From Microbacterium maritypicum MF109 (lineage in GTDB: Bacteria; Actinomycetota; Actinomycetes; Actinomycetales; Microbacteriaceae), in contig NZ_ATAO01000124.1 of assembly GCF_000455825.1 (NCBI RefSeq), positions 1 through 64,000 on the forward strand: a stretch of 64,000 nt of DNA. Reading direction: 5' to 3'. This document shows positions 20,876 through 24,860 of the stretch, piece after piece. Made by a program: the position numbers and the translations under genes. Positions within the stretch are counted from its first letter, which is position 1. Each line of letters opens with the position of its first letter. Below the pieces are notes generated by a model that saw only the letters and a list, made by a program, of their open reading frames with translations, was not told the origin of the DNA and made no database searches.

Positions 20876-21760
20876 TCAGTCGCGCGGCGAGAGCAGGTAG
20901 CGGTTCAGCGCGGCCGTGAGCGTGCGGTCGACCGGAAGGGAGACGCCATCGACGGCGGTGATCGCCGCGGCGAGGCGCACGCTCGACACGAGCCACGCGG
21001 CGTCCGCCTGCGGAAGGTCGGTTGCCGGGATGCGGTCGTACCCGACGTCGAAACCCTGGGCGGCGAGGTGCTCGTACACGCTGAGCTGCGTCGTACCGTG
21101 CAGGATGCCACCCGTCGGAGCCGGCGTCACGAAACGGTCGCCGAAGCGGAGGATCAGGGAAGCCGTCGGAGCCTCCAGCACGAAGCCGTCGCTCGAGAGG
21201 AAGATCGCATCGTCCGCACCACGCCGGTGCGCCTCGCGCAGGGCCGCCATGTTCACGGCGTACGACAGCGTCTTCGCTCCCAGCAGCAGCCACGGAGCCC
21301 GCTCCGCTGCACCCAGGTCGTACCCGCGGTCGAGCGTCACGACGCGCACACCATGCTCTCGCACGGCGGAGAAATCGGAGGCCGGAGCCGCGGTCACCCA
21401 TGCCGTCGGAGTGGGCCCGTGCTCGACTCCGCGGCTGAGGATGAGCTTGATGACGGACTCGCCCGCTCCGAGCTGTGCAGCCGCCTGATCGACCGCCTGC
21501 CGCCATTGCATGAGATTCGGGACCGGAAGGTCGCACAGCCGTGCCGAGTGGGCGAGGCGTTCCAGGTGCGGGACGACCTCCTGCGCGTGCCCGTCGATCA
21601 CGCCGATCGACTCGAACACCCCGTCACCGCGCTGTGTGCTCAGCTCCCCCACACTGAGCGCGGGGGCGGCGGCGTCCACCTGCGTGAAGGTCTCGGAGAA
21701 GTCGCTGCGCTGTTCGTCGGCGGCGACGGGATCGATCATGAGTGCGAAGCGCCCGGTCAT
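20876..21760 (-). CDS. pabC: Aminodeoxychorismate lyase / class IV aminotransferase
   Basis: A 294-residue PLP-dependent class IV aminotransferase fold enzyme. The Schiff-base lysine is Lys163 in LGAKTLSYAVNM, and the phosphate-binding segment GGILHGTT and the N-terminal RGDGVFESI are present. The most likely reaction is release of pyruvate from aminodeoxychorismate to give p-aminobenzoate for folate. A D-amino-acid or branched-chain aminotransferase is the alternative within the family. The ATG has a TAGGCT hexamer six bases upstream, suggesting a leaderless transcript. Confidence 0.85.
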   Translation of the reverse strand: MTGRFALMIDPVAADEQRSDFSETFTQVDAAAPALSVGELSTQRGDGVFESIGVIDGHAQEVVPHLERLAHSARLCDLPVPNLMQWRQAVDQAAAQLGAGESVIKLILSRGVEHGPTPTAWVTAAPASDFSAVREHGVRVVTLDRGYDLGAAERAPWLLLGAKTLSYAVNMAALREAHRRGADDAIFLSSDGFVLEAPTASLILRFGDRFVTPAPTGGILHGTTQLSVYEHLAAQGFDVGYDRIPATDLPQADAAWLVSSVRLAAAITAVDGVSLPVDRTLTAALNRYLLSPRD

Positions 21761-21803
21761 GATCCGAGCCTAGAGGGCGGGAATACCGTCCGCCGCATCG
21801 CGT

Positions 21804-21809
21804 TACAAT
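21804..21809 (+). promoter_or_regulatory. -10 element (TACAAT) for the candidate small RNA
   Basis: TACAAT fits the sigma-70 -10 consensus at 5 of 6 positions and lies 5 bases before the first paired base of the structured RNA. No convincing -35 is visible. Confidence 0.5.
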
Positions 21810-21814
21810 GGAGT

Positions 21815-21898
21815 GGCCGGGCCGCATAACCCCGGGCTCCAATTTTTGCCGCTGCGAGCGGCCTTCCGCCGAGAGGCGTTCTTGCGGCCCGGTCTTTT
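21815..21898 (+). ncRNA. Candidate structured small RNA with intrinsic terminator
   Basis: About 84 bases can fold into a closed multibranch structure. An 11-pair closing stem (21815-21825 with 21884-21894) encloses a single-stranded stretch ending in five T, a hairpin at 21848-21862 (GCCGCT/AGCGGC) and a hairpin with a GAGA tetraloop at 21867-21878. The closing stem is followed directly by TTTTCTT, so its 3' arm can also act as terminator. With the upstream TACAAT this looks like an independent transcript on the strand opposite its neighbours. It is not SRP RNA, tmRNA or a tRNA, and I do not recognise a known family. Confidence 0.5.
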
Positions 21899-21957
21899 CT
21901 TGCCCGGAGCGGTTTCGCTCATCCGGATCGCCTTCCCATCGGGCCACCCGATGCTCG

Positions 21958-22587
21958 TCAGGCGAGCGCATCCATCCGCCACAGCACGGCGGATGCGGCC
22001 AGATCCTGTCCGTAACTGCTCAGTCGCAGCGCTCGCGTGGTCAGTTCGCTGGATCGTGCGGGCTCGGTCGGTTCGTAGTCGTCAGCCGTGTGTGTCGCCC
22101 CGGAGGCCTGCACACGGCAGAAGGCCGCGGCGCGGTCGAGCGCCACGGCGAAGTCGCCACGGAATGCCCCCCGCAGGATCGTGTCGATCAGAGCGACCAG
22201 CTCGTCCGGACTCGCCGGCACCGGCGCACCGGCGATCGCCGCATCCGCCGACGGCAATTCGACGCGCCCGCGGTCGTACAGGAGGGCCGCGGTCTGCGGG
22301 TCGCCGTGGATCGCGAGCTGCAGCACGTAGAGGCGCCACAGGGCGCCGGGGAGAGTCCGTGAGGGTGCTTTCGACCACAGCTCCGCGATCTCGTCGATTC
22401 CGTGTTCGGCGGTGAAGGCGACGAGTCTTTCGGCGCTCGCTCCGCTCTCGTCGGCGCGGACGCGGGTCAGCAGAGCGGATGCCGTGGCATGCGCGATACG
22501 CGTCTCCTCGGCGGGGTCGTGTGCGCCGACGATGTTGTCGAAGGCGCTCGTCGGGCGGCGCACGGGGCGATGATACTGCTCGGGCAT
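21958..22587 (-). CDS. Conserved actinobacterial protein of unknown function
   Basis: A 209-residue, helix-rich, probably cytosolic protein with no signal peptide or membrane segment. The N-terminus is basic (PEQYHRPVRRPTSAFDNIVG) and the rest resembles repeats of amphipathic helices. I recall similar proteins carrying a dubious RNA polymerase beta subunit annotation; nothing in the sequence supports that. ATG 22587 is chosen because a TACCCT -10-like hexamer sits exactly six bases upstream (leaderless pattern). A GTG 11 codons earlier would overlap the rskA gene end. Confidence 0.75.
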   Translation of the reverse strand: MPEQYHRPVRRPTSAFDNIVGAHDPAEETRIAHATASALLTRVRADESGASAERLVAFTAEHGIDEIAELWSKAPSRTLPGALWRLYVLQLAIHGDPQTAALLYDRGRVELPSADAAIAGAPVPASPDELVALIDTILRGAFRGDFAVALDRAAAFCRVQASGATHTADDYEPTEPARSSELTTRALRLSSYGQDLAASAVLWRMDALA

Positions 22588-22616
22588 CCCTCCAGGGTAC
22601 GCGCGATCAGTGCGGC

Positions 22617-23408
22617 TCACGCCGTGGGGATGACGATCACCGGATCGGTCGTCGGCTGGCCCGACGGAGATCCGCCGGCCTGCTCCACGGTCACCGCGAT
22701 CGCGTCACCCGCCTGCATATCACCGGCGAGGAGGGCGGTGGCGTCACCACCGTCGACATCGAACACTCCGGCGGAGACCGGAGCGTCACCGCGCACGAAC
22801 CACAGCTCATACGTCTGGCCTTCACCCGCACTCGGGAGACCATCGGCCACGAGCACGGCCTTGCCGGTGGAAGCCGACCAGTGCGCTGTCGCGCTTCCTC
22901 CGTCGTCGAGCGTCACCGTCGCCTGCTGGGCGTCGTCGGCTGCTTCGATCTCCTGCAGCGCGATGACACTCGCGGGCGGGTTCAGCTGCTGATTGAGGGC
23001 GACCGCGCCGATGCCGACGCCCACCAGCACGGCGAGGCACGCCGCCAGGGCGAAGACGGTGCGGGTCCAGCGACGCTGCTTCTTCGGCTCGGGCTGAGGC
23101 TCGGTGTGGGACACGTCGACGACTGCGGGACGTTCCTCGTGCGATGACGAGACGTCGGTGTCGGTCCGCGATCCACCGTTCTGGGGCATGTCCGCGATCT
23201 GCGCGAGCAGCGCGGATCGGATGTGTGCGGGAGCGGCGACGGGCTCGACAGGGTCTGCGAGCGACGCGGCCGTCGCGATATCCGCATCCACCGTGTCCTC
23301 CCATTCCGGGTGCTCCGCGAGGGCTGAACGGTATCGACGCTCGTCGTCAGCGGAGAGCGAGTGCAGCGCGGCACCTGCCGCGAGTTGCTCGAAGTCCTTC
23401 TCGTTCAT
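22617..23408 (-). CDS. rskA: Anti-sigma-K factor RskA
   Basis: A 263-residue single-pass membrane anti-sigma factor. The cytoplasmic N-terminal part (~1-125) resembles the anti-sigma domain that sequesters SigK, with an early HSLSADDERRY element. One membrane helix (~130-155) is followed by an extracytoplasmic RskA-type domain ending in a beta-rich segment (TYELWFVRGDAPVSAGVF). Release by regulated proteolysis is known for the family. It overlaps the sigK stop as ATGA. Confidence 0.93.
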   Translation of the reverse strand: MNEKDFEQLAAGAALHSLSADDERRYRSALAEHPEWEDTVDADIATAASLADPVEPVAAPAHIRSALLAQIADMPQNGGSRTDTDVSSSHEERPAVVDVSHTEPQPEPKKQRRWTRTVFALAACLAVLVGVGIGAVALNQQLNPPASVIALQEIEAADDAQQATVTLDDGGSATAHWSASTGKAVLVADGLPSAGEGQTYELWFVRGDAPVSAGVFDVDGGDATALLAGDMQAGDAIAVTVEQAGGSPSGQPTTDPVIVIPTA

Positions 23409-24004
23409 GCCGTCACCCCCATCGCCGTACGCAGACGGCTGAGCCCGTCTCGCATCCGTGTCTTGATTGTCCCCAGCGGCGCCCCCACGAGGGCCGCGAT
23501 CTCGTTCTGACTGTAACCGCCGTAATACGCGAGGACGAGTGCTTCGCGCTGAGCTTCCGGAAGCCCCGAAAGCGCCTCGACGACCTTCCCTCCCTCGATC
23601 CCCAATTCGACCTGCTCCGCGACACTGTCGTGCGCGACGCCGATGTCCTTGAATCCTGCTCGTACGTCCCGGTCCGCGCTCGATTGCGATGCCCGCACTC
23701 GGTCGACGGCCCGGCGATGAGCGATCGTCATGACCCACGCTCGTCCCTGACCTCTGTTCGGAGCGAAGCGGGAAGCGGATTGCCAGATCTCGAGAAAAAC
23801 CTCCTGGAGCACCTCTTCGCTCTGCGCGCGATTGATTAGGACGCGGAGGATGAGGCCGAACACGCGGGAGGACAGCGTGTCATAGAGCGTGGCGAAGGCA
23901 GCCTGATCACCGGAGGCGACGCGGACGAGGAGGTCGGCGACAGCATCCTGCGTCGCTCCGTCCTCGGGAACGTCGAACCCATCGATGACCATCCCCATAA
24001 GCAT
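23405..24004 (-). CDS. sigK: ECF RNA polymerase sigma factor SigK
   Basis: A 199-residue group 4 sigma factor. The region 2 part (~28-95) includes the -10-contacting RVLINRAQSEEVLQEVFLEIW. The region 4 helix-turn-helix (~145-195) reads GYSQNEIAALVGAPLGTIKTRM. The pairing with RskA and a divergent fasciclin gene is the SigK regulon arrangement of mycobacteria (mpt70/mpt83). ATG 24004 has GGAGGAG seven bases upstream; later in-frame ATGs are possible. Confidence 0.93.
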   Translation of the reverse strand: MLMGMVIDGFDVPEDGATQDAVADLLVRVASGDQAAFATLYDTLSSRVFGLILRVLINRAQSEEVLQEVFLEIWQSASRFAPNRGQGRAWVMTIAHRRAVDRVRASQSSADRDVRAGFKDIGVAHDSVAEQVELGIEGGKVVEALSGLPEAQREALVLAYYGGYSQNEIAALVGAPLGTIKTRMRDGLSRLRTAMGVTA

Positions 24005-24121
24005 GCCGCATCTCCTCCCCGATCACGTGCAGACGTCACCCGAATGTGAAGGAATCGACCTCGCGAATCGTGCGCTCCGGCGCCGTCGTCGGAGCTGTTT
24101 CCAAGATTTCTGAGATTCTTC

Positions 24122-24148
24122 CCATCCGATCCCGAACGGGCTCCGAAC
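24122..24148 (+). promoter_or_regulatory. SigK-type promoter of the fasciclin gene
   Basis: CCATCC (24122-24127) and CCGAAC (24143-24148), separated by 15 bases, resemble the mycobacterial SigK promoter elements (CCATCC and a CCGAAT-type -10). They lie about 50 bases upstream of the fasciclin start. With sigK-rskA adjacent, SigK control is the natural reading, although the spacer is slightly short. Confidence 0.6.
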
Positions 24149-24200
24149 AGCACTCGACGCCACGGAGAGGCCGTGGCTCAGTTTTCTGAAGGAGCTCGAC

Positions 24201-24860
24201 ATGTTCAGCACCAAGAAGAAGGTCACCGCGGCAATCACCCTCGGCCTGGCGAGCGCGTTCCTGCTCTCCGCCTGTTCCATGGGCAGCGGCAGCACCTCGG
24301 ACTCGTCTTCCGAGCCGAAGGCACCGGAGACGTCGGAGTCGACGCCGATGGAGATGGACCCGGCAGCCAACCTGGTCGGCCCCGGCTGCGCGGCATACGC
24401 CGACGCTGTGCCGGACGGCGCGGGTTCCGTCGAGGGAATGTCGCAGGACCCGGTCGCGGTCGCGGCCTCGAACAACCCGCTGCTGACCACGCTGGTCTCG
24501 GCGGTGAGCGGACAGCTCAACCCCGACGTCGACCTCGTCGACACCCTGAACGGCAGCGAGTTCACGGTCTTCGCACCGGTCGACGACGCGTTCGCGAAGA
24601 TCGACCCGGCCACCATCGAGGCCCTCAAGACCGACAGCGCCACGCTGAGCTCGATCCTGACGTACCACGTGGTTCCCGGCCAGATCGACCCGGCCGACAT
24701 CGACGGCATGCACAAGACCGTGCAGGGCGCCGAGCTCGAGGTCACGGGCAGCGGTGACGACCTGATGGTCAACGACGCCAAGGTGATCTGCGGTGGAGTC
24801 AAGACCGCGAACGCGACCGTGTACCTCATCGACACGGTTCTGATGCCCCCGGCTTCCTGA
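24201..24860 (+). CDS. Fasciclin-domain surface lipoprotein (MPT70/MPT83-like)
   Basis: A 219-residue secreted lipoprotein: signal with lipobox LSAC (Cys25), an acidic Ser-rich linker, then a single FAS1 domain (~75-215) containing [14 protein letters not shown] and [13 protein letters not shown]1 domains mediate adhesion or ligand binding; the mycobacterial counterparts MPT70 and MPT83 are the main SigK-controlled products. AAGGAG precedes the ATG. Divergent from sigK-rskA and followed by strong hairpins. Confidence 0.93.

Follow-up and report, generated by a model that had tools for sequence, protein, structure and literature searches.

A predicted small structured RNA, widespread in actinobacteria, with a covarying closing stem, a near-fixed core and, in several lineages, a SigH/SigR-type promoter

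In a 64,000-nucleotide stretch of the Microbacterium maritypicum MF109 genome (contig NZ_ATAO01000124.1, positions 1 to 64,000; here called the window), we found a gene for a structured RNA of about 80 nucleotides at positions 21815 to 21894 of the plus strand, present as a single copy in this genome. Comparison of its relatives indicates that this is almost certainly a free-standing structured RNA transcribed from the plus strand. Model-based sequence searches find the RNA family widely in the class and in almost all sampled genomes of the order, and no family in Rfam 15 corresponds to this widespread actinobacterial RNA. As to function, we lean toward a stress-linked, trans-acting RNA of about 80 nucleotides, shared across the class, whose core would form a predicted RNA-protein complex that presents a C-rich strand. 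The features of the locus are collected in Table 1.

Table 1. Features of the RNA gene and its upstream region in the window
Feature	Position	Strand	Observation
GGGAATA, -35-type element of a SigH/SigR-type promoter	21779-21785	+	GGAA[TC]-N16-19-GTT in 85/90 genus loci; shuffled 0.4%
GTTA, -10-type element of the SigH/SigR-type promoter	21802-21805	+	Near invariant in 90 genus loci
TACAAT, sigmaA-type -10 (TAnnnT), overlapping GTTA	21804-21809	+	90/90 genus loci; shuffled 6%
P1 5' strand (closing stem)	21815-21826	+	11/11 scored pairs covary
P1b 5' strand (partner 21879-21880)	21828-21829	+	66 and 56 of 70 rows paired
Strand AACCCCGGGCTCCAATTTTT between P1 and P2	21828-21847	+	
C-rich motif CCCCGGGCTCCA (J12)	21830-21841	+	Invariant in 90 genus loci; 13 versions in 70 class-level rows
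J12 tail, variable, T-rich in the window	21842-21847	+	63 versions in 70 rows
Hairpin P2, GCCGCU-NNG-AGCGGC	21848-21862	+	12 versions in 70 rows; one covarying pair
Hairpin P3, CGCC-GAGA-GGCG	21867-21878	+	11 versions in 70 rows; pairs kept in 98.9% of cells
P1b 3' strand	21879-21880	+	
P1 3' strand	21883-21894	+	Covariation
TTTTCTT, possible 3' end	21895-21901	+	T/C-rich in genus columns

The first-pass annotation of this region had described an 11-pair closing stem that encloses two hairpins, one with a GAGA cap, and a pyrimidine-rich single strand. Both hairpins and the pyrimidine-rich strand, AACCCCGGGCTCCAATTTTT, are where it placed them; the closing stem is also present, but we count 12 pairs, including one G-U. 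The loop of P3 is mostly of the GNRA type across the family. When the sequence was folded alone, its energy was only mildly unusual, with a z-score of -1.79 on the plus strand (9 of 200 shuffles folded equally well) and of -2.11 on the minus strand (5 of 200). The minimum-energy fold of the lone sequence (-42.9) and the fold drawn from comparison (-42.1) differ by 0.8 kcal/mol; the former pairs part of the C-rich strand with P3, and the pairing probability of P3 itself is 0.31. Since the energy of the lone sequence is unremarkable, the case for the RNA rests on conservation and covariation.

Genome searches gave a measure of this conservation. Within the genus, a 301-base query matched the RNA place in 145 of 149 genomes, among them all 135 with a completeness of 90% or more and a contamination of 5% or less, with the match often shrinking to about 21816 to 21892 where the flanks have diverged. 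We aligned 89 of the loci from these 145 genomes, chosen manually among the best-scoring matches listed, together with the window. Across these 90 aligned sequences, the bases of GGGAAT and GTTA, together with P1, CCCCGGGCTCCA, P2, and P3, are near invariant; variation falls in the spacer of the promoter, the J12 tail, and the outer flanks. A covariance model (R1) was built from the 67 distinct sequences of the aligned genus loci (alignment A1). It matched 232 of 249 genomes and 82 of 85 genera in the family, 293 of 297 genomes and 93 of 94 genera in the order, and at least 141 of 246 genomes in the class. A broader model (R2) matched at least 22 of 296 genomes in a sample of the phylum, all 22 of them within the class, and at least 29 of 60 genomes of a Mycobacterium-type genus. 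Searches of more than 40 genomes were strictly filtered, so that the numbers for the class, the phylum, and the Mycobacterium-type genus are minimum values.

The family and order samples together left 21 genomes unmatched, 17 of which are 0.7 to 1.7 Mb in size; the remaining four are 75 to 86% complete (G249, G322, G567, and G588). The RNA is absent from every member drawn of four sampled small-genome genera (g11, g14, g82, and g117), and other genomes of 0.9 to 1.8 Mb, including G153 and G163, retain it. A scan of named contigs for the Mycobacterium-like form of the core gave 113 stretches; among the 80 of these that were listed are sequences from Mycobacterium/Mycolicibacterium, Rhodococcus, Nocardia carnea, Modestobacter, and one uncultured member of the Corynebacteriales. 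Copy number varies as well. One locus (L223:3001-3264, plus strand) carries two tandem copies, each preceded by its own GGAAT...GTTG, up to four copies per genome occur elsewhere (family f15), and in Rhodococcus jostii NBRC 16295 three contigs carry the RNA. An IMG/VR contig, which may be host DNA, contains the RNA near its end (L423:12460-12539, plus strand, 96.8 bits).

We measured covariation on two class-level alignments of loci picked by hand among the best-scoring matches listed, using column shuffles and slid pairings as controls. In the alignment fitted to model R1 (A4, 89 rows), 13 of 21 pairs had two-sided changes, with 137 cells compared to 30 after shuffling and at most 23 after sliding, where cells are sequences counted and not independent changes. 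When 70 of these rows were aligned with MAFFT without reference to structure (A5), 12 of 21 pairs had double changes, in 107 cells compared to 27 in shuffled columns and at most 14 in slid pairings. Covariation thus exceeds both kinds of control. The first-pass annotation had named a lack of conservation or covariation as grounds for giving up the RNA; conservation and covariation were both found on testing, and the RNA stands. RNAalifold gave A5 an energy of -68.9, compared to a mean of -38.8 over 60 column-shuffled alignments, and its consensus also draws pairs between the C-rich strand and P3.

The covariation is unevenly placed within the fold. Every scored pair of P1 covaries, P2 has a single covarying pair (C-G to U-A in 14 of 70 rows), and P3 has no double change on A5 and one on A4. 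A scan of the junction strands, covering about 200 column pairs, led to the selection of one additional short helix, P1b (A21828-U21880 and A21829-U21879), whose pairs occur as A-U, G-C, and U-A. Its two positions are paired in 66 and 56 of 70 rows, compared to shuffled means of 47.5 and 45.7, and none of 5,000 shuffles reached values as high. On a recount, 87.1% of P1b cells are paired, compared to 95 to 99% in the other helices. P1b places P3 directly against itself and leaves the C-rich strand and J23 as open junction strands. The two strands of P1 occur in 47 and 46 versions among the 70 sequences, far from the 12, 11, and 13 of P2, P3, and the C-rich motif. On these comparisons, P1 is held by pairing and the core (C-rich motif, P2, and P3) by sequence, as expected of a site that binds protein or RNA. 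We also considered an alternative pairing that would act as a switch, with the 3' strand of P1 leaving its 5' strand to pair with CCGGGCU; this is possible in the genus, but by eye the Mycobacterium-type 3' strand (of the GGCACCGUC type) does not fit, and the switch was rejected.

These data also bear on whether the element is a chance GC-rich fold or the stem of a terminator and nothing else. Such a reading could draw on the modest energy z-scores and on the T-rich tract that follows the stem in the genus, and it is refuted by covariation across the class together with the fixed core, which leaves it a negligible probability. The TTTTCTT noted by the first-pass annotation directly after the stem is present, but a T-rich 3' end is a property of the genus and is weak or absent in most of the other loci printed. 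A consensus scan of positions 21700 to 22000 found no sigma-70 promoter, standard -35 element, or intrinsic terminator.

Both genes that flank the RNA in the window lie on the minus strand, where the RNA would be upstream of pabC, and its stem can fold on either strand. We weighed a minus-strand RNA that would act as the pabC leader. Every one of the 39 one-sided changes seen in P1 within the genus leaves a G-U or U-G pair on the plus strand, and across the class there are 94 G-U or U-G cells compared to 24 A-C or C-A cells (in the fold drawn by RNAalifold). The best model score at the same place is 107 bits on the plus strand and 37 bits on the opposite strand, whereas the RNAalifold energies (-68.9 and -68.5) do not discriminate between strands. 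The G-U asymmetry, the model scores, the position of the promoter, and the absence of pabC nearby in all 83 of the loci outside the genus speak for the plus strand; the first two led us to reject the minus-strand reading, which we regard as very improbable.

Upstream of the RNA, the genus loci carry two overlapping promoter-like elements. The first-pass annotation had pointed to the TACAAT -10 element, which is there and whose TAnnnT form occurs at every genus locus, but the promoter in the genus is in addition of the SigH/SigR type. In 82 of the 85 genus loci with GGAA[TC]-N16-19-GTT, the GTT lies exactly 14 nucleotides before the stem. The element fits the published SigH/SigR consensus for Mycobacterium tuberculosis, Streptomyces coelicolor, and Corynebacterium glutamicum, GGGAAT(A)-spacer-(C)GTT, with a spacing of 16 for SigR and for M. 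tuberculosis SigH (PMC3489674); the spacing from GGGAATA to CGTT in the window is 15 nucleotides, one below that value. The likeness to promoters of the SigH/SigR regulons lies in this arrangement before the RNA in the genus and in the Mycobacterium-type genus, and the difference is that the genus element overlaps a TAnnnT, with most other sampled loci of the order having TAnnnT only.

The two promoter forms are distributed unequally over the class. The consensus is found at a suitable distance in 85 of 90 genus loci and in 21 of 27 Mycobacterium-type loci, but not throughout the family of RNAs. In the same bacterial family outside the genus, none of five loci has the SigH/SigR-type element and all five have TAnnnT. 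The other families of the order have the SigH/SigR-type element in 5 of 46 loci, TAnnnT in 36, and neither in 8. For the other orders of the class, these numbers are 20, 14, and 4 of 33, and in 5 of the 20 SigH/SigR-type loci the GTT is 26 to 41 nucleotides from the RNA start, compared to the usual 11 to 18. In the Mycobacterium-type set, 2 of 27 loci have TAnnnT and 6 have neither; this set comprises 27 of the 29 matches, since L239 and L258 were dropped as the same genome places as L209 and L211, and L248 was kept although it is the same place as L210. Of 88 A4 loci, 32 have a looser form of the SigH/SigR-type promoter before the RNA, and none has it downstream or in the antisense direction.

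SigH and SigR are sigma factors of the thiol-oxidative and heat stress responses. The M. maritypicum genome has a SigH_actino gene above the family cutoff (G000:C184) that is itself preceded by one GGAAT-N18-GTT, the sole match on either strand of a 2.8-kb stretch. From the form of the promoter, SigH/SigR-type control of the RNA in the genus seems likely. Among 75 genomes checked, 70 had a SigH_actino match (E value of 0.001) and 59 were above the cutoff. Loss of the RNA together with SigH was considered and rejected, as 18 of the 21 genomes lacking the RNA still have a SigH_actino match; the small genomes G153 and G163 have the RNA and no SigH match. Adjoining the RNA in the window, the region 22617-24860 holds a second ECF sigma factor gene (weak SigH_actino match at 23396-23866) together with what we take to be an RskA-like anti-sigma gene and a fasciclin-domain gene.

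The genes around the RNA change from lineage to lineage. Within the fetched stretches (1.5 to 3 kb on each side, less at contig ends, and not implying strict adjacency), pabC accompanies the RNA at 82 of 89 genus loci and at none of 83 others, and a gene for a 220-amino-acid protein does so at 86 of 89 and 47 of 83, respectively. The latter gene (21958-22620 on the minus strand of the window) converges with the RNA in 80 of the 86 genus loci; outside the genus it is upstream on the same strand in 44 of 47. Genes nearby encode HelR/HelD-like and HU-like proteins and malic enzyme at the Streptomyces-type locus (L213), and a carboxyltransferase and a WhiB protein at one Mycobacterium-type locus. 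Several families of the order have genes for a DUF47-like protein and a PitA-type phosphate transporter downstream of the RNA on its strand (for example, L152:1233-2809, minus strand), and pst genes lie near the RNA in the window. Of the two flanking genes noted at the outset, pabC is a neighbor in the genus alone.

Because the neighbors vary between lineages, we conclude from this comparison that the RNA is a gene of its own rather than the leader of one gene. A leader or riboswitch-like element that acts in cis on the gene behind it would be consistent with 27 of the 83 non-genus loci, where a clustered family of same-strand reading frames is located within 1.5 kb, often 110 to 780 nucleotides downstream; one such frame is DUF47-like and lies beside a PitA-type transporter gene, and malic enzyme is encoded after the RNA, on its strand, at the Streptomyces-type locus. 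In contrast, the next gene in the genus is usually convergent (80 of 86), the carboxyltransferase gene at two Mycobacterium-type loci (L209 and L210) is on the other strand about 100 nucleotides away, and the downstream gene changes between lineages while the RNA persists. We consider a leader improbable. The covarying closing stem, the near-fixed promoter distance, and the changing neighbors bear out the first-pass proposal of a free-standing plus-strand RNA, put there at about 84 bases, and the minus-strand flanks and the restriction of pabC to the genus agree with its statement that the RNA, lying opposite both flanking genes, is a leader of neither.

The comparison shows a clamp, formed by the variable yet paired P1 and by the inner helix P1b, around the near-fixed core of C-rich strand, P2, and P3. 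Judging from promoter form, the RNA would be made under SigH/SigR in the genus and in the Mycobacterium-type genus, and from a sigmaA-type promoter in the genus as well and mainly so in the other sampled families of the order. In the mechanism that we propose, it would work in trans as an RNA-protein complex in which a conserved protein reads P2 and P3, whose sequence is kept as well as their pairing. The C-rich strand may be offered to the protein itself or to RNA rich in G, for example ribosome-binding sites, and in this way the complex would adjust translation or RNA turnover, doing so under stress in several lineages. We favor protein-mediated action because a near-fixed core sits in a changing clamp, the promoters are of stress type, and no long complement is enriched; the chance that the RNA acts through a dedicated, putative protein partner seems to us about even. 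The 220-amino-acid neighbor has no support either way as this partner: none of its 54 members has a Pfam match, the window copy has no NCBIfam match, and its predicted model, which is all helical (mean pLDDT of 83.4), matches no PDB fold at an E value of 0.001 (best, 0.49).

A different way to read the same core is as a classical base-pairing sRNA, in which the C-rich strand alone would pair with G-rich Shine-Dalgarno regions and block translation, with P1, P2, and P3 merely stabilizing the molecule. C-rich seeds are usual in actinobacterial sRNAs, and the C-rich motif of the family to which Microbacterium belongs contains CUCC, which is complementary to GGAG. This part becomes UCCC, CCCC, or UACC elsewhere, and P2 and P3 conserve sequence and not pairing alone, both of which argue against such an sRNA. 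So does the count of exact 11-base complements of the C-rich strand, which in nine genomes occur at 37 places besides the RNA genes compared to 38 for a reversed control. Of the 46 complement places in all, 30 were read, and seven are the RNA gene itself; the one site that recurs, in two congeners (L414 and L421), is inside a reading frame and not at its start. An antisense regulator with one long conserved target was rejected, as the 11-base complement is neither enriched nor recurrent at starts among the 30 of 46 places read. We regard the classical base-pairing sRNA as a minority possibility; pairing of a short seed with G-rich ribosome-binding sites is possible, above all in the family with the CUCC strand. 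Returning to the protein-mediated reading, its fullest form, a class-wide RNA that builds a dedicated RNA-protein particle through P2, P3, and the C-rich core and makes translation or RNA decay responsive to thiol or heat stress, is put forward tentatively.

To our knowledge, few sRNAs are shared across actinobacteria. This RNA is near universal in the sampled order, where all but mostly reduced genomes have it, it reaches Streptomyces- and Mycobacterium-type genomes with a core that hardly changes, and its promoter would tie it to the thiol-stress sigma factor in several lineages. The first-pass reader's inability to match it to a known family was borne out by covariance-model searches of the window and of class-level loci. 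For the window element, no Rfam 15 family scores above its gathering threshold, and at a lax threshold the best match in 21700 to 22000 is isrK, with 11.2 bits against the 50 needed. Ten class-level loci, including Streptomyces- and Mycobacterium-type ones, also have no match in Rfam 15, and L213 has none even at the lax threshold.

Among known actinobacterial RNAs, 6C RNA (RF01066) is likewise small and similar in length (75 positions), and its C-rich loops recall the C-rich unpaired stretches of the present RNA; it differs in fold, and its model matched neither the window element, the class-level loci tried, nor the M. maritypicum genome. Ms1 and the 6S-like RNAs (scr3559) are structured and widely distributed in actinobacteria, like the present RNA. 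The 6S-type models in Rfam do not match the window or the ten class-level loci. Ms1 is reported from 824 species in 14 orders and was sought in gaps for RNAs of 200 to 300 nucleotides, in contrast to the 80 or so here (PMC9130861).

The closest candidate is scr2952 of S. coelicolor, which was confirmed by experiment (Vockenhuber et al. 2011, as cited in PMC8388888) and which is reported to be in Rfam and to be conserved in over half of the Streptomyces examined (PMC8388888). Its name follows SCO2952, which PMC8655204 identifies as a HelD gene, and our Streptomyces-type copy lies beside a HelR/HelD-like gene and malic enzyme. Judging by position, the Streptomyces-type copy is probably scr2952, yet scr2952 is listed in Rfam according to PMC8388888 and the Streptomyces-type element has no Rfam 15 match. 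In the open-license literature, we found no description of the RNA as a class-wide family, scr2952 included. Should scr2952 prove to belong here, what is now a single orphan sRNA of Streptomyces would become a general family with a defined fold, and its partner and role would be directly testable in laboratory strains. We know of no established Hfq-type network in this class of bacteria, and the RNA-protein particle, if it exists, would be their counterpart of the 6S- or CsrB-type protein-binding RNAs.
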